Shown piece after piece: positions 3,172 through 36,428 of a stretch of 64,000 nt of DNA; positions within the stretch are counted from its first letter, which is position 1, and each line of letters opens with the position of its first letter. The position numbers and the translations under genes are program-made. A model generated the notes under the pieces. It saw only the letters and a list, made by a program, of their open reading frames with translations. It was not told where the DNA came from and searched no databases. Source of the stretch: an uncultured Eubacteriales bacterium (GTDB taxonomy: Bacteria > Bacillota > Clostridia > Peptostreptococcales > Anaerovoracaceae); NCBI GenBank assembly GCA_902798745.1, contig CADBXM010000010.1:34427-98426 (forward strand), read 5' to 3'.

Positions 3172-4191
3172 ATGAAAGTTTTTACAAGAGATTACAGGAT
3201 CACAGGTGAATACCACCCTTTGTGGAACGAATACTTCGGCGGAATGAATCCATGTGTACTCGATATAGAGGCAACCGGACTTGACCGCTCACGCTGCAAG
3301 GTAATACTTGTAGGACTTATGACGCGTACAGAAAGCGGTGTCAGGATCACTCAATTCCTCGCTGAAAACCACTACGAGGAATCGAAGGTGCTTGAAGCAT
3401 CGATGGACATGATCGAAGAAGAAGGCATAGACTATCTGATCACATTCAACGGATATGCCTACGATATTCCGTTTATCAACGCAAGGTTGGATGCGTGTAT
3501 GGACGGGCGCCATATTCATATGTATCATTTTGACCTTTACCGTTTCCTCAGAAAAGCCACCGATATCAGGACTCGAGTCGATTCTATGAGCCAAATGTCT
3601 CTGGAAGATCACTATGGCATTTTTTCGGATAGAGGAGATACCATTACCGGTAAAGAAAGCGTTACACTCTTTGATCAATACGCTATCAGCGGCAACAGCA
3701 CTCTCGAAAAAATCATACTAACACATAACCGTGAAGATGTTCTCCACCTCCACAGGCTCATGTATCTCGCACTCGCCGATATCCCGGGAGATTCTTCAAA
3801 TGCAAAGGAATCCAGCATAGCACCTGATATCCATACAGCGCTTTCGGCATACGGCTTTCCTGCAGCAGAAGGAAGATTCAGCGTGCGTCCTTATATACAA
3901 CAAAGGAACAATACTCTCCGTATCACCGGAGAACAGATCATCGATCCTTTCTCGGGCGCTTATTTCCCTGATACAGACAACCCTCTCACTGTCAGTTTCA
4001 GCGCGTCAACATCTTCCTTCGAAATCGACGCCCCTATCTCGCGCCACGGCGATGATTTCTATATGGATCTGCATCCTCTTCACCTTGAAAATCTAAATGA
4101 CGAGGATAATATAAACGGCTACCTGATATTAGGTAGCCGAAGCATCAATCTTATCTCACGTATTCTTATAACCGATTATGCATCGCGCTGA
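3172..4191 (+). CDS. YprB-like ribonuclease H-fold exonuclease domain protein
   Basis: This 339-residue protein carries a DnaQ-like 3'-5' exonuclease (RNase H fold) domain of the YprB type. Exo I is VLDIEATGLD (Asp31, Glu33), Exo II is ITFNGYAYDIPF (Asn93, Asp98), and a late HNREDVLHLHRL segment supplies the Exo III His/Asp. The C-terminal 140 residues have no motif I recognise. YprB relatives are conserved in Firmicutes but biochemically poorly characterised, so a nuclease role is an inference from intact acidic residues. It is divergent from the STAS operon and converges on the YitT gene with only 4 bp between stop codons. Confidence 0.82.
   Translation: MKVFTRDYRITGEYHPLWNEYFGGMNPCVLDIEATGLDRSRCKVILVGLMTRTESGVRITQFLAENHYEESKVLEASMDMIEEEGIDYLITFNGYAYDIPFINARLDACMDGRHIHMYHFDLYRFLRKATDIRTRVDSMSQMSLEDHYGIFSDRGDTITGKESVTLFDQYAISGNSTLEKIILTHNREDVLHLHRLMYLALADIPGDSSNAKESSIAPDIHTALSAYGFPAAEGRFSVRPYIQQRNNTLRITGEQIIDPFSGAYFPDTDNPLTVSFSASTSSFEIDAPISRHGDDFYMDLHPLHLENLNDEDNINGYLILGSRSINLISRILITDYASR
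4108..4139 (-). terminator. Terminator-like hairpin for the YitT gene, embedded in the convergent yprB-like coding end
   Basis: CGGCTACCT and AGGTAGCCG form a perfect 9-bp stem with a 6-nt loop. Read on the minus strand it is followed by TTTATATT. It lies about 57 bp past the YitT stop but inside the last codons of the opposite-strand gene, so one sequence serves both purposes. Confidence 0.6.
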
Positions 4192-4195
4192 TCGA

Positions 4196-5266
4196 TCAGC
4201 CGTCGATCTTTGTGATATCCGAGAAGCCCTTTCCCGAGCCCCAGACTGAAGCAACAGAAGTAATCGATACAAAAGCTCTAGGGTCATGCTTCGCCAGATA
4301 TCTTTTGATTATAAAGCTTTCGCGAGGTGTACAGATAATTTTTATCTGTTCCATTTTCTCCCCTGTATACCCTCCGGTTATCTCAAGACTTGTAGCACCT
4401 CTTCCAAGATCGGTGATCACGAACTTCTTAAGTTCTTCCGGTTTATGTGTTACCACATTGAGCTCAACTATACGCCCGCCTATGCCGTACATCACGCCTT
4501 CTCCCACCTTAGTGGATATGTATGTTATAACGACTGCGTACATCGCGATATTTACACCGAAAACAAAAGCGCTGGCGATGATGACCACTACATTTATAGC
4601 AAAGTTCAGATAGTTGAGACTTATATGTGGCATCATGCGGTACTTTATTATCTTTGCTATTGAATCAGACCCGCCTGAAGAAAAGCCGGCTTTGAACGTG
4701 AGTCCGTTTGATATACCAAATAAACAGCCGGTCACCAATGCCACGAGAAGCAGATCGTCACTCTTTATTATCACAAGTCCCGACAATTCGAATAGAAGCA
4801 TCACTAGCGGGTATGCAAATGACATGAATATGATCTTTCGAAGCTCTTTTACGCCAAGAGAGAACCATACCACTACCGCTACTATCATAGCTAATGCGTA
4901 ATAAATCAGTGAGTAGTTCCAGGCCGTATAGTGCTGTATGATCCTGCTTATACCACTGAGGCCTCCGCAAGTGAGATCATTTGGGATCATGACAGAGATC
5001 GTACCAAGAGACCCGATGATGACACCGAGCAACGCAAGAGCGTATTCTTCTGCCCTAACTCTCAGTTTTGAATGACCGTGGAACTCCGGATCATCCGCGT
5101 ATATATTGTTGGCTTCTTTTGTGACTTCAGTATCTTTTTCAAGCTTTTCATCCAAAGCCTCTATCGCGGAATTATCATCCGGAATAATGTCATGTATTAT
5201 GTTGTGATGCTCCTTCATGTGAGCATTTTTCAGTTTTTTGCTGTGTTTTTCTTTGTTATCTGCCAT
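4196..5266 (-). CDS. YitT family membrane protein (DUF161 + DUF2179)
   Basis: This 356-residue protein has a charged cytosolic N-terminus of about 75 residues. Five or six hydrophobic segments follow (for example ALALLGVIIGSLGTISVMI), including the family hallmark GLSGISRI and FKAGFSSGGSDSIAKI. The C-terminal soluble DUF2179 domain is about residues 270-350 and includes CTPRESFIIKRYLAKHDPRAF. YitT proteins are widespread inner-membrane proteins of unknown transport specificity. The N-terminal extension is longer than usual for the family. A second YitT gene lies at 32.4-33.3 kb. Confidence 0.9.
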   Translation of the reverse strand: MADNKEKHSKKLKNAHMKEHHNIIHDIIPDDNSAIEALDEKLEKDTEVTKEANNIYADDPEFHGHSKLRVRAEEYALALLGVIIGSLGTISVMIPNDLTCGGLSGISRIIQHYTAWNYSLIYYALAMIVAVVVWFSLGVKELRKIIFMSFAYPLVMLLFELSGLVIIKSDDLLLVALVTGCLFGISNGLTFKAGFSSGGSDSIAKIIKYRMMPHISLNYLNFAINVVVIIASAFVFGVNIAMYAVVITYISTKVGEGVMYGIGGRIVELNVVTHKPEELKKFVITDLGRGATSLEITGGYTGEKMEQIKIICTPRESFIIKRYLAKHDPRAFVSITSVASVWGSGKGFSDITKIDG

Positions 5267-11972: not shown

Positions 11973-12674
11973 TTAATAATCACTGTATTTATTTTCATCT
12001 TTGAGTACTTCATGACGGACGCGTGACATCCTCTCGTCCACATTGTGGAGGATGTCGGCGCACTCCTTGAGTGTGTTTTCAATGTCCTGCGCCAGCTCGC
12101 CCTTGTTCTTATATCTCAGCTCGTGCTCCAGGCTCGCCCACGCGTCCATCGCAATGCTTCTGAACTGGACTTCCACCGGAACCATTTTCTTTTTGTTTAC
12201 CAGGTATACGGGCACTGCCACTACCACGTGGAGACTTCTGTATCCGCTCTCTTTAGGACTGTTTACATAGTCCTTCACTCGGATCATCTCGATATCCTCC
12301 TGCTTCAGCAACATGTTGGACATGGCAACGAGATCCTCTTCATAGTTGCACACGACTCTGAGTCCGGCAATATCCAGAACCTCGCGCTTTACGATATCGA
12401 GATTGTTGATCGGATCCTCGATACCATATCTTCCGGCTTTCTCGATTATAGCGTCAAATGCCTTGAGTCTGGAGTTGTAATGATGGATCGGCATATAAGA
12501 ATGCTGCTTGTCAAAATCATCGGATATTATCTTTATCCTTGTCTCAAGCACTTTTATAGCCGAGCCATACAGAAGCGATATTTCATCGATCGCCACCTGG
12601 AGCTCTTCGTCTGTCCCTTTGAACTGCGGCATCTTTTCACGGATGCGGTCTGCGTAGTAATACCTGAATGCCAT
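11973..12674 (-). CDS. relQ: Small alarmone synthetase, RelQ/YjbM type
   Basis: This 233-residue single-domain (p)ppGpp synthetase transfers pyrophosphate from ATP to GDP/GTP. The RelA/SpoT nucleotidyltransferase signatures are present: HHYNSRLKAFDAI, DIAGLRVVCNYEED (metal-binding Asp), YRSLHVVVAVPV and VEVQFRSIAMDAWASLEHELRYK. There is no HD hydrolase, TGS or ACT domain, as expected for the RelQ/RelP class. RelQ is preferred over RelP on length and the C-terminal helices. It lies between potC and valS; coupling with tRNA charging is an attractive but unproven idea. Confidence 0.9.
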   Translation of the reverse strand: MAFRYYYADRIREKMPQFKGTDEELQVAIDEISLLYGSAIKVLETRIKIISDDFDKQHSYMPIHHYNSRLKAFDAIIEKAGRYGIEDPINNLDIVKREVLDIAGLRVVCNYEEDLVAMSNMLLKQEDIEMIRVKDYVNSPKESGYRSLHVVVAVPVYLVNKKKMVPVEVQFRSIAMDAWASLEHELRYKNKGELAQDIENTLKECADILHNVDERMSRVRHEVLKDENKYSDY

Positions 12675-12720
12675 TTTGTTTTAACCTTCCATTAATCTAT
12701 ATATGTGAATCGTCCGCTGC

Positions 12721-13515
12721 TCAAGCAGTCTGCAGCGTATTATCCTCACGATCCGCCCTGCTCTGTCTGACGTTTACTGCCAGCAATACTGCCAGAGCTA
12801 CCACGAACACTATAGTGGAGAGAGCGAACAGGCTCGGTCTGATACCTATCTTGACCTCGCTGTATATTAGCGTGGAGATAGTATTGATGCCTGCGCCTCT
12901 TGTAAAATACGTGATTATGAAATCATCGACCGACATAGTAAAGCTCAAAAGAAAGCCCGATGTGATGCCCGGCCATAATTCCGGGAGCACTATCTTTCTG
13001 AATGCGTATCTCTCAGAGGCACCGAGATCGAGCGCCGCCTCATACAGCCTGTCAGTGCTTCTGTTCACCCTAGGCCTCACCGATAATATCACATACGGAA
13101 TGCAGAATGTAGCGTGACTGAAGAGGATCGTCATATATCCGCGCGGCGCTCCCACCATTAGGAAGAAGAGCATCAGCGCTATACCCGTAACTATATCCGC
13201 ATTGAGCATCGGGATGTTGTTTATACCGAGCAAAGTATTCTGTGTCCTTGGCTTCATAGCGGCCATTCCGAGCACCGCCATGGTACCAACTACGGTCGCT
13301 ATGAGCGCCGCTAATATAGCGATCGAGAATGTATTGACGATCGCGCCCATCATCAGACGGCTTTGGAAGAGTTCCTGATACCATTTAAGGCTGAATCCGC
13401 CCCACACCGACATCGACTTGACTTCGTTGAAACTGAGCACGATAAGAGTCAGTATCGGCAGATACAGGAACAACATCACTATCAACACATATATCCGTCC
13501 GAAAGATCTTTTCAT
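12721..13515 (-). CDS. potC: Polyamine-type ABC transporter permease PotC
   Basis: This 264-residue inner-membrane permease has about six hydrophobic segments and the EAA loop YEAALDLGASERYAFRKIVLPELWPG, split here only by reading order, which docks on the ATPase. It is the second permease of a spermidine/putrescine importer. The end of the protein (DREDNTLQTA) is normal for PotC, so no substrate-binding domain is fused. The next gene downstream is relQ, not potD. The start abuts the potB stop directly. Confidence 0.92.
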   Translation of the reverse strand: MKRSFGRIYVLIVMLFLYLPILTLIVLSFNEVKSMSVWGGFSLKWYQELFQSRLMMGAIVNTFSIAILAALIATVVGTMAVLGMAAMKPRTQNTLLGINNIPMLNADIVTGIALMLFFLMVGAPRGYMTILFSHATFCIPYVILSVRPRVNRSTDRLYEAALDLGASERYAFRKIVLPELWPGITSGFLLSFTMSVDDFIITYFTRGAGINTISTLIYSEVKIGIRPSLFALSTIVFVVALAVLLAVNVRQSRADREDNTLQTA

Positions 13516-14331
13516 TTAAATCAGACTGGCGCCTCCCGTCTTGTCGAAACGCTGCAATATAAGCATGCTCGCTATTATGAATAACATCATTACCAGAGAC
13601 AGTCCCGATCCGAGATACCAGTTAGAATTCACTGTGAATTCCTGTTCGATGATATTCCCTATCAGGTTGATCTTGCCTCCGCCGAGCATGTTGGAAATAA
13701 CGAATGTCGTCAGAGCCGGTATGAATACCATAGTGATCCCGCTCACGATGCCCGGCACCGAAAGCGGCAATATGATTTTTGTATATACTTTGGATCTTCC
13801 GGCTCCGAGGTCATAAGCAGCCTCTATCAGATGATCGTCGATCTTTGAGACCGTGTTGTATATCGGGAGTATCATGAACGGCAGGAAGTCATATACCATG
13901 CCGAGCACTATCGCTCCAGGGGTATTCATCATCTCCTGACGCGGAAGCCCTATGGCCGATATCACTGCGTTTATCACTCCCTGGCGTTCAAGAAGCACCT
14001 GCCATGCCATCGTGCGAAGCAGAAAGTTCATCCACATTGGCAGGATGATCACGAAAATGAGAAAGCCCTGCTTTCCATACTTGCTCTCACGCAATACCAT
14101 CGCCATAGGAAAAGCGATGACAAGACATATCGCAGTGCTTATCAGCGCAAGCAAAAGCGACAGGCCGAGAGCCTGCATATGATCGCTTCTGAACATCGCA
14201 AGAATGTTTTCGAGTGTGAAATCTCCGTCTCTGTTCGTAAAGCCATAAAAAGCAATCGAAGCGAGCGGCACCAATGTGCCGGCGAATATCCATATTATGA
14301 ATGGTATCGAATATGCTTTGCTTGCTTTCAA
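13516..14331 (-). CDS. potB: Polyamine-type ABC transporter permease PotB
   Basis: This 271-residue permease has about six membrane segments. Its EAA loop, EAAYDLGAGRSKVYTKIILP, marks the ATPase contact. It is homologous to PotB of spermidine/putrescine importers. It starts 2 bp after the potA stop and abuts potC, so translation of the three genes is probably coupled. Confidence 0.93.
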   Translation of the reverse strand: MKASKAYSIPFIIWIFAGTLVPLASIAFYGFTNRDGDFTLENILAMFRSDHMQALGLSLLLALISTAICLVIAFPMAMVLRESKYGKQGFLIFVIILPMWMNFLLRTMAWQVLLERQGVINAVISAIGLPRQEMMNTPGAIVLGMVYDFLPFMILPIYNTVSKIDDHLIEAAYDLGAGRSKVYTKIILPLSVPGIVSGITMVFIPALTTFVISNMLGGGKINLIGNIIEQEFTVNSNWYLGSGLSLVMMLFIIASMLILQRFDKTGGASLI

Positions 14332-30950: not shown

Positions 30951-32228
30951 CTAATAAACTGTAAATTTCTTTTTCACAAGCGTTTTGGATTTTACTGTAT
31001 CCGATGCTTTTATTTTGTAGTAATATGTTCCCTTCCCAAGTTTTCCGAACCTGATCTTTCTATCAAGTTTTTTTACATTATAAGTTTTCTTGCCCGGTTT
31101 TGCGCTTGCCTTGCACTTCACCTTGCCTTTACTATTCACGACCATGACCGTGACTTTTGTCAGTTTATTATTCGAACTTATCTTGCCTTTAATGGAATAT
31201 GCTTTTCCCTTTTTGATCTTTTTCGGATAGTTATATGATTTTATCTTCAGAGTGGACTCTCCGGTGACGGTGAATGACGCATTTACCAAAACCGCAGAAG
31301 CCTTCTCATCCGTGGCAGTTATCTTATACTTGAATGTTCCGACCGGGACAGTACCGAATTTAATATCATAGTCGATCTTTGAGAGATCATATGACCATGC
31401 ATCAGGATTTACCGTCTTAGATATCATTGCCTTGCCGGAAGAATTATATACACCGACTACGACTTTTTTGATTCTGTAGTTAGAGCTGATGATCCCCCTT
31501 ACGCTGAAGCCATAGCCCTGCTTCAATGAATCAGGTATAGTCTGATCGCTTATAGATAGTTCTGAGGCATAGTTCACGTTACTTGCCGAGAGCGGTTTTA
31601 TAGGCTGACCTGCTTTAGGCTTTGGCGCATTCTTTGCAAGCCCCACTTCTTTTATGTACCAGTATTTAGTGACCTTTGAAGGCCCTTTCATAGATGTATC
31701 CGACCATGTCTGTATCCCTTTGGCAGCGTTACCTGTGTTATGGAGCGAGTCAGCAGCATATACTACGCCGTTCCTCAATCCGGTCACAAGGACTCCATGG
31801 GTCCCATTCTTGGATGCATCTTTCCCCCATACAACAAATCCTTCGGGATGCTGCTTAAGCAGCTTCTCGAATTCCTTTATCCTTGCCGCGTCTCCATTTC
31901 CACTGAATTTTCCGCAACCGATACTGAACGAAAGCCCGTCCGCCTCATAAGTGTATGAATTCCGGAGCTGCCCCAGTATTGTCGCGTGGCCCCTCAGCGT
32001 TTTGTTGGTCACTTCGGCCCATGCTTTTGAACCTCGCATGATCAGTGATCTTCTGATCATGTATTTGCTTGCAGTCAGTATGCAGTCGCCGCTTTGATAA
32101 TCACTCTTAGGTGTGTGATATACAGCAGGATCAGCTATATTAATGACCTCAGCAAATATACTCTGAGCAGGCGCCGCGCTTATAATCATCGTCAGCACCA
32201 GGAGTATGGCCGCAAGTCTTTTTTTCAT
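30951..32228 (-). CDS. Secreted C39-like papain-fold protein with two Ig-like repeats
   Basis: Starting from the ATG at 32228 (AAAGGTG site, 425 residues), it has a signal peptide (MKKRLAAILLVLTMI, cleaved near residue 25). A cysteine-peptidase-like domain follows with a plausible triad: Cys49 in SGDCILTASKYM, His144 in NGTHGVLVTG and Asp160 in YAADSLHN. Residues about 225-325 and 328-425 are two related beta repeats: GFSVRGIISSNYRIKKV parallels YSIKGKISSNNKLTKV. The C-terminus is lysine-rich and without an LPXTG or membrane anchor, so it may bind the cell wall by charge. A frame extension to 32255 lacks a better site. Substrate unknown. Confidence 0.8.
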   Translation of the reverse strand: MKKRLAAILLVLTMIISAAPAQSIFAEVINIADPAVYHTPKSDYQSGDCILTASKYMIRRSLIMRGSKAWAEVTNKTLRGHATILGQLRNSYTYEADGLSFSIGCGKFSGNGDAARIKEFEKLLKQHPEGFVVWGKDASKNGTHGVLVTGLRNGVVYAADSLHNTGNAAKGIQTWSDTSMKGPSKVTKYWYIKEVGLAKNAPKPKAGQPIKPLSASNVNYASELSISDQTIPDSLKQGYGFSVRGIISSNYRIKKVVVGVYNSSGKAMISKTVNPDAWSYDLSKIDYDIKFGTVPVGTFKYKITATDEKASAVLVNASFTVTGESTLKIKSYNYPKKIKKGKAYSIKGKISSNNKLTKVTVMVVNSKGKVKCKASAKPGKKTYNVKKLDRKIRFGKLGKGTYYYKIKASDTVKSKTLVKKKFTVY

Positions 32229-32375
32229 AAACACCTTTTGTATAACAAATCCCAATAATATGTGCTAAAGTCGCACATTACCTAGTATGTAAACACTACC
32301 CCACTTGGCGCCACAGATGTTCGATTCTAACTAACTGTTAAGCGCAGTCTTTACAAATATTTATAAAAAAGAGCA

Positions 32376-32400
32376 AAAAAAAACGGGCCTTACAGCCCGT
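32376..32400 (-). terminator. Intrinsic terminator of second YitT gene
   Basis: ACGGGC and GCCCGT form a 6-bp stem. On the minus strand it is followed by TTTTTTTT, 11 bp past the YitT stop. Confidence 0.88.
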
Positions 32401-32410
32401 GTCTCGAACA

Positions 32411-33316
32411 TTAGTTGTTGTATACATCCTTTATATTGGAAAAATGTTTGCCCCAGACCGTCAATACGGAGCTCATAGCAGAGAATGCATCCGGATCGTT
32501 CTCGGCGATGAACCTCTTGATCAGTAGGGCCTCCTGCGGAGTGCATACCACTGAAAGTGTCCGTTTTTCATTTTTTGTGTACTCTCCCCTTGATATGTGA
32601 GATGTCACATCACGCTCAAGATCGTCCAGTACATATCTTGTAATAGTTTCTCCTTTTTCTTCAGAACTCGGAACTATTTCAAATTTCACAGTCCTTCCAT
32701 TGTATCCTGTCAGTATCGCCGATATAACGCGGGCTGTTACTATAGATGTGATCACGGCATACATCGCGACATTAGTGTCGAACACAAACGCCGAGATGAT
32801 GATGATAGTGACATCTATAACCAGCTTGATATCCGCAACTCTTAGGAAATTGAACACTTTATACTTCAGCACTCTGGCAAGAGTATCGGTCCCGCCCGAG
32901 GAATATCCTCCCACATATCCTATGCCGGAAGCCAAGCCGTAAAACACACCCATGATCAAAGAAGCCAGCAGACGGTCTTCCGAATCGAGCAGCTGAAAGT
33001 CGATATGCTCGAAAATAAAAAGCAATACCGGATATGTGATAGCAAGTGCGATGATCCGTTCCAGTTCCTTTTTACCCATCGTTATCCAAGCTGTTATTAC
33101 GATCACCATGGATATCGAATAATAAACAAGTGAGTAATCCCAAGGGAACACATGAGTGATCATCCTTGTGATACCCGGCAGTCCGCCCGATGTCATACCA
33201 TTTGGGATCATGACGAACATCTGAACGAAAGTACTGCAAAATGCCGATAATAGTATTATGAGGAATTCTCTGAGTATCTTCCCCACTTTAGTTGTAGGTT
33301 TGCGAATATGGTCCAT
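32411..33316 (-). CDS. YitT family membrane protein, second copy
   Basis: This 301-residue paralogue of the 4.2-5.3 kb gene shares MIPNGMTSGGLPGITRMI near residue 35, GYSSGGTDTLARVLKYK in mid-chain and the DUF2179 segment VVCTPQEALLIKRFIAENDPDAF. It lacks the long N-terminal extension of the first copy. Five membrane segments are visible. Function in transport is unknown. It lies 15 bp downstream of the CARF-like gene, so the two may be co-transcribed. Confidence 0.9.
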   Translation of the reverse strand: MDHIRKPTTKVGKILREFLIILLSAFCSTFVQMFVMIPNGMTSGGLPGITRMITHVFPWDYSLVYYSISMVIVITAWITMGKKELERIIALAITYPVLLFIFEHIDFQLLDSEDRLLASLIMGVFYGLASGIGYVGGYSSGGTDTLARVLKYKVFNFLRVADIKLVIDVTIIIISAFVFDTNVAMYAVITSIVTARVISAILTGYNGRTVKFEIVPSSEEKGETITRYVLDDLERDVTSHISRGEYTKNEKRTLSVVCTPQEALLIKRFIAENDPDAFSAMSSVLTVWGKHFSNIKDVYNN

Positions 33317-33331
33317 TAGATATCTCTATTG

Positions 33332-35227
33332 TCAGTTATTCAAGTTGTCCTGTTTTTTATCTCCGGACGATTTGCTTCGAGCCGTCTTTAGTGTCTGCGC
33401 GTATGCCCTTATCTCAGAATTGTTTATTCTCATGATATGGGAATGTTCACCCGGCATACATTCCATAACTTTGTCGTAACAGCTTATGAATGTTTCAACC
33501 GCCTGTCGAATTAAATTCAGTCTCTCGCTTACATCGCCTTCTTTCCTTCCAAAACTTTCTACGGATTCTTCTGCATGATTAGTCACGTTTCTCACATAAC
33601 CTATCACATTGTAAGCGAAAAGAAGTCCATAGAGTGTCTCTTTGTCCGAACATAAGGTGTGCGCGCGAATTACCGCTTCATCATCTATATCGAGGTCTGA
33701 GATCCTTACTTCAGCATACGCCCGCTGGAAAGGAATGCCACTTCCCTTTATATCCATTTTGTCAGTGCGGTCTCTTCCGTAGAACTTGACGAAGTAATGA
33801 TCTATGTCATCGAGTTTGTATTTTTCAAAGTGCCTGAGATTGTAATATATCTCCCCGAAGATGCTTACTACTTTCTCTCTGTCTTCATCTGAATCAAGAT
33901 AGTAATAGATGCCATTGTGGACAAAATCACGAGGAGCTCTTGACTCGATCAAAGTCAGGGTCTGTTGCCAGAAACCTTTTCTGTATGCCCACTTAACGAG
34001 ATCGATAAAGTTGACTCTGTCTCCCGTCACTAAAACTCCATAATCATCTTTGATTCCGTTGATGATTATATCGAAATAACTCTCGATCAAATTGTCACTA
34101 GGTATAAAGTCTCCCTCGTCAAAGATTGCTCTCAGGGTGTTTATGCCACGCTCGATGTCGGTGATATCGCATAGTGATATGCCGACATCTATGGTCCTCA
34201 TGGCGTTGAGCAATCGCTCTATATATACATTCTCCATATTCTGCTTTTTCCAGTAATCCATAAGAAGGTCGGTCTTACCATATTGAAGAAAGGCTCTGGT
34301 ACCGGCGAGCAGATCGGATATCCCGTACAGTTCTGTGTCATCTGTGATGGCGTTGGTAAAATCATCCGACATATGCGTCGCGGTTGCGATCTTTCTGATC
34401 TTTACATGGCTGTTGGAGATAGCCTTAAGTATATCTATGAAGTTGATCAGAGCAAACGAGTCGGTGGCATCTTCGCTCAAAATACAAATATACAGATCGA
34501 TGTCTATTTCTGTACCTGACTTCCTGATGAGCCTGTTGAATCCGTTTGCCAACTTATCACCAAATGAAAGGCTCCCATTTGTATCCGTAGGAATGAACCT
34601 GATCTTAACTTCTTCGTTGCCATTCAGGAGCTCCAGCTTGGCAGTGTCTTTCATCTCGCCATATAGATAATTGAGTGTCCATGCTCTGTATCGCATGGGA
34701 TCATCCGAGACTTCAGGCAGAGCCTCCATTATTTCTTTCATAAAGAGCTTCCTAAGATATTCATCACTTCTCAGCAAATCAAACATTCGATTGAATCTGA
34801 TGTTCATGTCGGGCTTGATATGTTCACTGTAGAACATACGGCAAAAGTCTTTTATCTTGCTTTGTTCCTCTTCAGTGAGAAGATCCCTTATGTCCTGGTC
34901 CTCGATCCTTATCTCATCGATATACTGGGCCAGCCTGTATCTGAGCAAACTGTAAGTGGAAAGATTCCTGATATCCGATGAATAAAACGACGAGCCTTCG
35001 CGGAGAACGATCTGTTTCATCTCGTCGCCCGGATCGTATGTGGTCTTGCTTCCGAGAGTTATGATCTCATCGATGTGATGATTGGCAAGCATGTACTTCG
35101 AGCTTGCTTCAGCTGCGAGAATAGCGTCGCAGTACAATGTCCTCTCGGAGTCAGACGTGTAGTAGTAGTCAACATCCGGATTCGCTTTTCCTCCAAACAG
35201 AGACGTGATCATTATGCTGTATTTCAT
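33332..35227 (-). CDS. Orphan CARF-domain protein with HEPN-like C-terminus (Csx1/TM1812-like), putative RNase
   Basis: This 631-residue protein is counted from the ATG at 35227; a TTG start at 35266 lies in a leader hairpin. The N-terminus MKYSIMITSLFGG and then IDEIITLGSKTTYD resemble the first Rossmann strands of TM1812/Csx1-type CARF proteins. The middle segment (ICILSEDATDSFALINF... HVKIRKIATATHM... LYGISDLLAG) follows the order of the second CARF half. Near the C-terminus, GYVRNVTNHAEE gives the R-X4-H motif (Arg546, His551) of HEPN ribonucleases. No CRISPR array, cas10 or cyclase is in the window. It has its own promoter. Resemblance is by eye, so domain naming is tentative; a cyclic-oligonucleotide-sensing RNase is the inferred role. 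Confidence 0.65.
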   Translation of the reverse strand: MKYSIMITSLFGGKANPDVDYYYTSDSERTLYCDAILAAEASSKYMLANHHIDEIITLGSKTTYDPGDEMKQIVLREGSSFYSSDIRNLSTYSLLRYRLAQYIDEIRIEDQDIRDLLTEEEQSKIKDFCRMFYSEHIKPDMNIRFNRMFDLLRSDEYLRKLFMKEIMEALPEVSDDPMRYRAWTLNYLYGEMKDTAKLELLNGNEEVKIRFIPTDTNGSLSFGDKLANGFNRLIRKSGTEIDIDLYICILSEDATDSFALINFIDILKAISNSHVKIRKIATATHMSDDFTNAITDDTELYGISDLLAGTRAFLQYGKTDLLMDYWKKQNMENVYIERLLNAMRTIDVGISLCDITDIERGINTLRAIFDEGDFIPSDNLIESYFDIIINGIKDDYGVLVTGDRVNFIDLVKWAYRKGFWQQTLTLIESRAPRDFVHNGIYYYLDSDEDREKVVSIFGEIYYNLRHFEKYKLDDIDHYFVKFYGRDRTDKMDIKGSGIPFQRAYAEVRISDLDIDDEAVIRAHTLCSDKETLYGLLFAYNVIGYVRNVTNHAEESVESFGRKEGDVSERLNLIRQAVETFISCYDKVMECMPGEHSHIMRINNSEIRAYAQTLKTARSKSSGDKKQDNLNN

Positions 35228-35256
35228 ATTTTTACTTCCCTTCTTCAGGATCTTGC

Positions 35257-35293
35257 TGAGCAACAATGATCTTGCGGACTTTGCGCTTGCTCA
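35257..35293 (-). promoter_or_regulatory. Leader hairpin upstream of the CARF-like gene
   Basis: TGAGCAA and TTGCTCA form a 7-bp stem around an inner GCG/CGC region in the 5' leader, about 30 bp before the start codon. It could influence translation or merely buffer the leader. Confidence 0.35.
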
Positions 35294-35306
35294 AAAGATT
35301 GAAATA

Positions 35307-35335
35307 ATTTTATCACATAAGCTCTGTGCTTGTAA
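35307..35335 (-). promoter_or_regulatory. Predicted sigma-A promoter of the CARF-like gene
   Basis: On the minus strand, TTACAA (complement of 35330-35335) and TAAAAT (complement of 35307-35312) are 17 bp apart. It lies after the tRNA-Glu terminator, so the gene is not simply read through from the tRNA. Confidence 0.6.
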
Positions 35336-35346
35336 TTGCAGGGCAA

Positions 35347-35375
35347 AAGAAAAAAGTCCTCAGAATTGAGGACTT
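35347..35375 (-). terminator. Intrinsic terminator of tRNA-Glu
   Basis: AAGTCCTCA and TGAGGACTT form a perfect 9-bp stem with a GAAT loop. On the minus strand it is followed by TTTTTTC immediately after the tRNA. Confidence 0.9.
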
Positions 35376-35378
35376 TCG

Positions 35379-35453
35379 TGGTAGCGCATCAGGGAATCGA
35401 ACCCTGGATTCCGCCGTGAGAGGGCGACGTCTTGACCTCTTGACCAATGCGCC
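35379..35453 (-). tRNA. tRNA-Glu (anticodon CTC)
   Basis: The 75-nt minus-strand gene folds as a standard cloverleaf: acceptor GGCGCAT/ATGCGCT, D stem GTC/GAC, anticodon stem TCGCC/GGCGG with loop CTCTCAC (anticodon CTC), and T stem CAGGG/CCCTG with loop TTCGATT. An encoded CCA follows discriminator A. It reads GAG codons. It stands alone, with its own terminator downstream. Confidence 0.95.
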
Positions 35454-35543
35454 ACGTTTATCGCGCAGAAGGTATTATAACTTAATTATCAGTCATTGTC
35501 TATATGAAATTTGAAAAAACCTTCTGCCGATATACGCTATGTT

Positions 35544-36428
35544 TTATCTTACTTCAATAAGCTCGATTTTGAAGTTGAGTGCTTTACCTGCCATCGGGTG
35601 GTTGAGGTCGAATGAAATGCTGCTGTCGTCTACAGCGGAGACAACCGCTTCGAAAGGCCTTCCCATCTCATCCTGGAGCATCACCTGATCGCCTTCTTCC
35701 AATTCCTCTGTATCAGGAATATCATTCTTATCCATAGTGATCACCAGATAGTCCTCATGCATGCCGTAAGCTTCTTCAGGCTCAAGGTGGATATTGGTGA
35801 TCTCACCCGGCTCCAGATTTGCAACTGCATAGTCAAATCCACGAAGCATGGTCCCGATCCCGCAGGTGTACTCGAGAGGATCCCTGTTGTAGCTGGAATC
35901 GAATTGCTCGCCGTTATCGAGAGTGCCTTCATAATGCACTTTAACTACCCTGCCTACATTCCTGCCTTCAAAGATGTACTGAGGCTCACCGCATCCAGCG
36001 CAGCCTCCGCAACCTGACATATCGGTACCACATCCTCCGCATCCTGCTCCACATGCATTATCGTGGCTGTGTGTATGCTCATGTCCATGCTCGTGATCGT
36101 GATGGTCACAGTTGACGCCTGTATCTACAAGCTCACCATCGAGATAGGCTACTATTGCCTCATCAGCATCACCCGATGCGCCGGCATAAACCTCAATACC
36201 GGCAGCGTCAAGAGCATCTTTTGCGCCCTGTCCCATTCCTCCGCAGATAAGTACATCAACATCATTATCGGCAAGACAAGCTGCAAGGGCTTCATGCCCT
36301 GCCCCGTTTGAATTCAACTCACGGGTCGCCTTTACCGCTCCGTTTTCCACTTTATAGAGCATGAAAGTCTCGGTGTGTCCAAAGTGCTGAAATACTTTTC
36401 CATCTTCATAAGTAACTGCTATTATCAT
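35544..36428 (-). CDS. Fusion of NifX-like Fe/Mo-cluster-binding domain and SlyD-type FKBP prolyl isomerase
   Basis: Residues 1-105 of this 294-residue protein are a dinitrogenase-cofactor (NifX/NafY/NifB-C) domain: MIIAVTYEDGKVFQHFGHTE and the LICGGMGQGAKDAL loop. Residues 106-150 are an extreme His/Cys metal-binding linker (HEHGHEHTHSH, CGAGCGGCG, CGGCAGCG). Residues 151-294 are an FKBP/SlyD domain with VKVHYEGTLDNGEQFDSS, an inserted IF domain, and the C-terminal DLNHPMAGKALNF. SlyD delivers nickel and folds proteins; the N-terminal domain binds Fe-S or Mo-Fe cofactors. The combined protein looks like a metallochaperone. No nif genes are nearby, though the hydrogenase cluster is 6 kb away. 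Confidence 0.88.
   Translation of the reverse strand: MIIAVTYEDGKVFQHFGHTETFMLYKVENGAVKATRELNSNGAGHEALAACLADNDVDVLICGGMGQGAKDALDAAGIEVYAGASGDADEAIVAYLDGELVDTGVNCDHHDHEHGHEHTHSHDNACGAGCGGCGTDMSGCGGCAGCGEPQYIFEGRNVGRVVKVHYEGTLDNGEQFDSSYNRDPLEYTCGIGTMLRGFDYAVANLEPGEITNIHLEPEEAYGMHEDYLVITMDKNDIPDTEELEEGDQVMLQDEMGRPFEAVVSAVDDSSISFDLNHPMAGKALNFKIELIEVR

Follow-up and report, generated by a model that had tools for sequence, protein, structure and literature searches.

The DNA analysed here, called the window throughout, is a stretch of 64,000 nucleotides. On its minus strand lies a gene for a protein with a CARF-like N-terminal region and a C-terminal HEPN motif, followed closely by a gene for a YitT-family membrane protein (Table 1). 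A tRNA-Glu gene and a terminator-like hairpin stand upstream of the two genes, and the hairpin after the YitT gene is the probable end of the transcription unit. An earlier note on this DNA had described the protein as an orphan CARF/HEPN ribonuclease, perhaps with a membrane partner. The upper bound that it gave, 35335, takes in upstream sequence, and the gene itself stops at 35227. The YitT gene begins 15 bp after the CARF–HEPN stop codon, as stated there, and the two genes are probably co-transcribed. The note had also given the CARF–HEPN gene its own promoter, which is plausible: a promoter-like site is present, although such matches are no commoner in positions 32200-35700 than in shuffled sequence (5 against a mean of 7.8).

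Table 1. Features of the CARF–HEPN locus in the window.
Feature	Position	Strand	Basis or remark
CARF–HEPN gene	33332..35227	-	631-aa ORF, ATG start; PADLOC models; relative about 71% identical
CARF-like region, first part (residues 1-110)	34898..35227	-	Profile-profile alignment, column counts
Residues 38-40, aligned to T-N-E of eight relatives	35116-35108	-	Window protein reads A-A-E
Insertion (about residues 111-204), unmatched in eight relatives	34616..34897	-	hhalign gap
CARF-like region, second part (residues 205-300)	34328..34615	-	Profile alignments, column counts
Residues 248-254, site of D-x-T-x-x-x-R	34486-34466	-	Window protein reads C-I-L-S-E-D-A
HEPN active-site motif R546-N-V-T-N-H551	33575..33592	-	R, N and H kept in 20/20; aligned with three CRISPR-linked relatives
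YitT/DUF2179 membrane protein gene, 15 bp downstream	32411..33316	-	Pfam, distribution, distance
Terminator-like hairpin after YitT	32383..32400	-	
Promoter-like site ATTACA-18-TAAAAT, TG before second hexamer	35307..35336	-	Between the tRNA-Glu hairpin and the gene
Terminator-like hairpin downstream of tRNA-Glu, ahead of the gene	35352..35377	-	
tRNA-Glu (ctc)	35379..35453	-	

Domain identity of the protein

The motifs quoted in the earlier note (MITSLFGG, IDEIITLGSK, ICILSEDATDSFA, LYGISDLLAG and GYVRNVTNHAEE) are all found in the 631-residue protein, and R546 and H551 stand where it had placed them. Its assignment of a CARF plus a HEPN domain is backed by PADLOC models and by profile comparisons, and on this basis the gene product is confirmed as a CARF–HEPN protein. 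The CARF_HEPN, CARF and Csx1/Csm6 models of PADLOC match the window protein (best 8e-22); their best stretches begin at residue 258 or later and leave the first CARF half uncovered. CARF_HEPN, CARF and Csx1 models also match 15 of the 15 members scanned from the first family alignment.

Profile-profile comparison by hhalign related the 20-member family to eight CRISPR-linked CARF–HEPN relatives with 99.8% probability (E 3e-28) over residues 1-446, an alignment that ends before the HEPN motif. Three TM1812-type relatives were matched with 96.3% probability over residues 205-589, HEPN motif included, and one of these three (L090) matches a solved chain, 8y75, named 'CRISPR-associated protein' (3.6e-8). 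No significant family was returned for the window protein by Pfam or NCBIfam. The PDB was searched with the window protein, with the profile of its family and with a profile of eight relatives, and yielded no related chain. Two AlphaFold models built from 2-row alignments, one of the full length and one of residues 330-631, had mean pLDDT values of 36.2 and 39.9. Since the confidence of both models is very low, the assignment of the CARF–HEPN fold rests on the sequence profiles.

Family and distribution

A relative on contig CADAUB010000043.1 is about 71% identical to the window protein, and the window's own genome holds a second copy on another contig, 47% identical and accompanied by a gene for a MATE exporter. 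A match was carried by 17 of 148 related genomes, all in the same genus (47 genomes). In three of these carriers (G006, G035 and G042) only remnants of the gene are left, and short N-terminal pieces of it lie in G001 and G039. A profile search of the order matched 14 of 393 genomes, all in one family. In the phylum, eight of 398 genomes matched: the window's own, and seven in which the matching proteins are more distantly related. Relatives of the window protein were found neither in viral contigs (two scans) nor in plasmids or phages.

In a maximum-likelihood tree of 30 rows, from which one row cut by a contig end was left out (L036, 375 aa), a branch with 100/100 support separates the family from 11 CRISPR-linked relatives. 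The root is unsure because long branches meet at this split.

As a separate observation, an N-terminal CARF piece lies between the same two neighbour gene families in two genomes (L041:589-1053 and L042 near 3953-4225), and this is apparently a shared decayed locus.

HEPN active site

The signature of HEPN ribonucleases is given in PMC3710099 as Rx4-6H with a polar residue following the R. All 20 family members carry it in the form R-N-x3-H, and R546, N547 and H551 are invariant among them. The earlier note had named the conservation of R-X4-H in homologues as a point on which its proposal could fail. With R546 and H551 kept in 20 of 20 members, together with N547, the motif is not a product of chance. 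The stretch GYVRNVTNHAEE aligns with the RNDINHAG motif of the three TM1812-type relatives, and W413, Q421, Q422, T425 and P432 are common to the family and the eight other CRISPR-linked relatives. Two divergent members (L072 and L073) have in common a longer C-terminal tail (FDGKNVLINIR and FNGKEVHITLS), which is absent from the other rows of the alignment.

The window family resembles the Csx1/CARF–HEPN RNases of type III CRISPR systems (PADLOC PDLC01829-31, PDLC01032 and PDLC01181) in its order of CARF, helical region and HEPN domain. It also has their R-N-x3-H motif and the same W, QQ, T and P residues. Csm6 of type III-A has the same CARF–HEPN order and a HEPN Rx4-6H motif in common with the window protein. 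The PADLOC hits are CARF_HEPN, Csx1 and one mixed Csx1/Csm6 model; there is no Csm6-only model among them.

The remnants and N-terminal pieces described above would suit a former CRISPR effector, now functionless and in the course of decay. However, full-length frames and invariant catalytic residues are hard to reconcile with this explanation. The comparison of the window gene with its relative of about 70-71% identity also speaks against it: a dN of 0.19 beside near-saturated synonymous change (pS 0.74) indicates strong purifying selection and a gene that is being maintained. We consider simple decay very improbable.

Altered CARF motifs

The CARF motifs of the CRISPR-linked relatives are expected to line the messenger pocket and to serve messenger binding. 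D-x-T-x-x-x-R is present in 11 of 11 of these relatives, as D-x-T-G-G-x-R in eight and as D-I-T-H-S-x-R in the three of TM1812 type; T-N-E and G-G occur in the eight and not in the three TM1812-type rows. At the columns of D-x-T-G-G-x-R, the 19 family rows with letters hold D in four, T in none, the first G in four, the second G in none and R in one. D and the first G occur together in four divergent members, all from outside the genus. At the T-N-E columns, T is found in two of 19 rows and N in none, while the E (E40) is kept in 18.

As aligned, the D-x-T-x-x-x-R motif of the CRISPR-linked relatives is lost in the window-gene family, in an alignment so remote that single columns may be misplaced, and the CRISPR-linked relatives themselves vary. 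The change does not prove that binding of cyclic oligoadenylate is lost. Nevertheless, the remodelling of the CARF motif makes the Cas10-made cyclic oligoadenylate that serves the CRISPR-linked cousins an improbable trigger here. The family also differs from the type III Csx1/CARF–HEPN enzymes in its CARF insertion of about 95 residues, its frequent MATE neighbour, its separate branch and the lack of a Cas10-palm, Cas1 or mCpol match in the window's own genome.

Search for CRISPR and messenger enzymes

The earlier note had reported no CRISPR locus around the gene. This holds for the window, which has no array-like repeat, and it extends to the genome and to the carriers of the genus. Profiles for the Cas10 palm (PF22335), mCpol and Cas1 found no match in the window's own genome (1.97 Mb, 93% complete). 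Cas1 was found in none of the 17 genus carriers, to which the Cas1 and Cas10 searches among carriers were confined; five further carriers lie outside the genus. In the genus as a whole, Cas1 is present in four of 47 genomes (G005, G028, G036 and G045), none of which is a carrier. The palm profile, which also catches diguanylate cyclases, matched 42 of 148 relatives. G043 is the sole carrier among them, with one hit under the cut-off; this weak hit is a GGDEF diguanylate cyclase and was rejected. No Cas10 or other cas genes, the companions expected of a type III effector, were thus detected in the locus, the window's own genome or the genus carriers; these genomes are incomplete (the window's own at 93%), so that missing genes could be missing sequence.

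A CD-NTase was also rejected as a source of the messenger. With the SMODS profile, no intact enzyme was found in the locus or in the genome, where the single hit, on another contig, covers about 60 residues of a cyclase N-terminus. In that gene, at L083:9474-10919, roughly the first 60 residues of a CD-NTase run in one reading frame into a type III DNA methyltransferase, and the fusion is perhaps the scar of a lost CBASS-like gene.

By comparison, the 11 CRISPR-linked relatives lie on seven contigs, and Cas10, Cas1/Cas2 or type III RAMP genes occur within the fetched stretch of each. Cas10 stands beside L090 and L091, Cas10 with Cas6 beside L096, and Cas1 with Cas2 beside L097. Type III-D genes lie near L086/L095 and near L088, and Cas10 with Cmr1 near L092; L087, L089 and L094 share contigs with L096, L097 and L088. 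One of these type III-D loci (L110, G494:C52) holds three CARF–HEPN genes in about 13 kb, namely L088, L094 and a 591-aa gene at 12373-14145.

The family could still be an effector of cyclic oligoadenylate in trans, one that answers cA4- or cA6-type messengers whose source, a Cas10 or a cyclase, is gained and lost by horizontal transfer or is missing from the incomplete genomes. The CARF–HEPN architecture in common with CRISPR-linked relatives is in keeping with this explanation, as are the matches of some genomes of the order to SMODS or to the Cas10-palm profile, with its liking for diguanylate cyclases. However, the 17 genus carriers without Cas1, the identity of their only palm hit, the loss of D-x-T-x-x-x-R and the truncated cyclase of the window's own genome all weigh against it, and we regard an effector of this kind as doubtful.

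The MATE exporter neighbour

A gene for a MATE exporter adjoins the CARF–HEPN gene in ten of 20 loci, the exporter being identified by Pfam in L023, L032, L070 and L071 and by BLAST to the L023 MATE (57-86% identity) in the other six. Of the 19 loci where an upstream gene could be seen, nine have the exporter gene directly before the CARF–HEPN gene and on its strand; in L071 the exporter gene follows directly downstream. For scale, the window's own genome carries 18 MATE domain hits spread over nine frames. These nine MATE genes make up about half a percent of its genes, on a gene count derived from the size of the genome. The MATE and CARF–HEPN frames overlap by 4 bp (stop/start) in L023 and L027. 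The larger overlaps in L012, L028, L029 and L031 are overestimated, because the ORF calls start at the first ATG, GTG or TTG.

The exporters belong to two distant MATE subfamilies, 14-21% identical to each other. Where the exporter is of the first kind (seven loci), its identities follow the CARF–HEPN identities closely (Spearman 0.98 over 21 non-independent pairs). The MATE of L032 is of the second kind and 15-18% identical to the first, whereas the two closest relatives of its CARF–HEPN protein in the tree carry the first kind; the exporter was seemingly replaced while the pairing was retained. The rows with the second kind show no clustering in the tree, all of 500 shuffles being as low.

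Two genomes, one with an apparent insertion and the other with an apparent deletion, suggest that the pair is gained and lost as a unit. In G003, the MATE–CARF–HEPN pair sits between a gene of about 337 aa and YitT, which directly adjoin each other in eight of eight fetched genomes without a CARF–HEPN gene. In G006, the residual frame opens as a MATE gene does and closes with sequence resembling the CARF–HEPN tail; a single deletion spanning both genes would account for it. The combination of exporter and RNase is therefore probably of long standing. In the literature searched, short of the 2020 CARF classification (10.1093/nar/gkaa635), we came across no account of CARF–HEPN proteins coupled to MATE.

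These observations allow a CRISPR-free two-gene system, in which the MATE exporter and the RNase would move and decay together. The exporter would set the level of a new ligand or remove a stressor, and blocked or overwhelmed export would fire the RNase. The ligand might perhaps be RNA fragments with 2',3'-cyclic phosphate ends, as for RtcR, or an exported nucleotide-like compound. We put this arrangement forward tentatively.

A mainly physiological role is also conceivable, in which the RNase is no anti-phage factor: it would adjust the transcript or the output of the exporter coupled to it, or respond to what that exporter clears, for example a translation inhibitor or RNA damage. The tight coupling and the apparent replacement of the partner fit such a regulator, and CARF domains can serve outside CRISPR, as with RtcR (PMC7790460). 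However, half of the loci (ten of 20), among them the window copy and its relative in G037, have no adjacent MATE, and the patchy occurrence with decayed copies would fit a defence or mobile gene as well. We therefore think this role rather unlikely.

As a side observation, a GAF–ABC-ATPase fusion lies directly downstream of the MATE–CARF–HEPN pair in one locus (L070:4585-5805), and it is possibly a third component in that lineage.

YitT as a candidate partner

The earlier note had proposed YitT as a possible membrane partner of the RNase and a survey of homologue neighbourhoods for this linkage. A downstream gene could be seen in 18 loci, and YitT was next to the CARF–HEPN gene in three of them (the window, G037 and G003); the recurrent neighbour was MATE. 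The 15-bp spacing and the terminator-like hairpin after YitT are compatible with a partnership in the window. However, every one of the 47 genomes of the genus has YitT-family genes; in the eight fetched non-carriers YitT directly follows the gene of about 337 aa with no RNase present; and EamA, ThrE, class I tRNA synthetase, reverse transcriptase and other genes follow other copies. In G008 and G022, carriers with the CARF–HEPN gene elsewhere, YitT has other neighbours. Since YitT is found throughout the genus, its link to the RNase is most simply explained by the site of insertion. On distribution and synteny, we rejected YitT as a specific partner, and the RNase–YitT pairing is highly unlikely to be functional. 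At 4196-5266 on the minus strand the window holds a second YitT-family gene, which shares 37% identity with the YitT gene of the CARF–HEPN locus.

Proposed mechanism and significance

The explanation that we prefer, with a probability of about 0.55, is a CRISPR-independent, ligand-gated CARF–HEPN RNase with a changed sensor that is often coupled to an exporter. It draws on domain homology, the invariant active-site residues, the motif loss, the MATE adjacency, the purifying selection and the finding of no Cas10 palm or Cas1. By homology, we infer a dimer in which the N-terminal Rossmann-like CARF module would gate the C-terminal HEPN centre formed by R546, N547 and H551. This centre would cut RNA without metal. 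It would leave 2',3'-cyclic phosphate ends, as characterised HEPN enzymes do (PMC3710099). The trigger would be another nucleotide-like or RNA-end ligand, not a cyclic oligoadenylate made by Cas10, and the predicted outcome is RNA cleavage and growth arrest under phage attack or other stress. In the window copy the RNase was retained with no exporter next to it, and it stands ahead of YitT. A defence role and the part played by the MATE exporter are likewise putative.

RtcR, a CARF–AAA+–HTH regulator of RNA repair, offers a parallel by description only: it is independent of CRISPR and has a divergent CARF domain, whose ligands are tRNA fragments that carry a terminal 2',3'-cyclic phosphate (PMC7790460). 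The RtcR effector is a transcription activator, whereas that of the window protein is a predicted RNase. Because the divergent CARF of RtcR senses RNA ends without CRISPR, an RNA-end ligand is a fair first guess only.

Orphan CARF genes are not new as such: Makarova et al. 2014 (PMC4012209) already put on record that every CARF family has genes unlinked to CRISPR. What the present family adds is a compact clade, found in one bacterial family as sampled, that has kept the RNase centre and changed the sensor motif, with no Cas10 or Cas1 where these were tested. Those CARF–HEPN RNases that have been studied best are regarded as subordinate to Cas10. In a CRISPR-free branch that lacks the usual sensor motif and often stands beside an exporter, the trigger may be something new. 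The clade makes the open question of what CARF domains sense outside CRISPR directly testable, and the recurrent MATE exporter, with one subfamily apparently swapped for another, offers an unexpected lead to the signal.

Other genes near the locus

Two further genes on the minus strand of the window were noted. The gene at 30951-32255 encodes 434 aa, and its C-terminus matches a type IX secretion sorting domain above the cut-off (NCBIfam, 7.7e-7); in an apparently clostridial genome this match is probably a look-alike. The gene at 35544-36428 encodes a 294-aa protein in which a dinitrogenase iron-molybdenum cofactor domain is fused to an FKBP-type prolyl isomerase domain, and the linker between them is rich in His and Cys and possibly binds metal.
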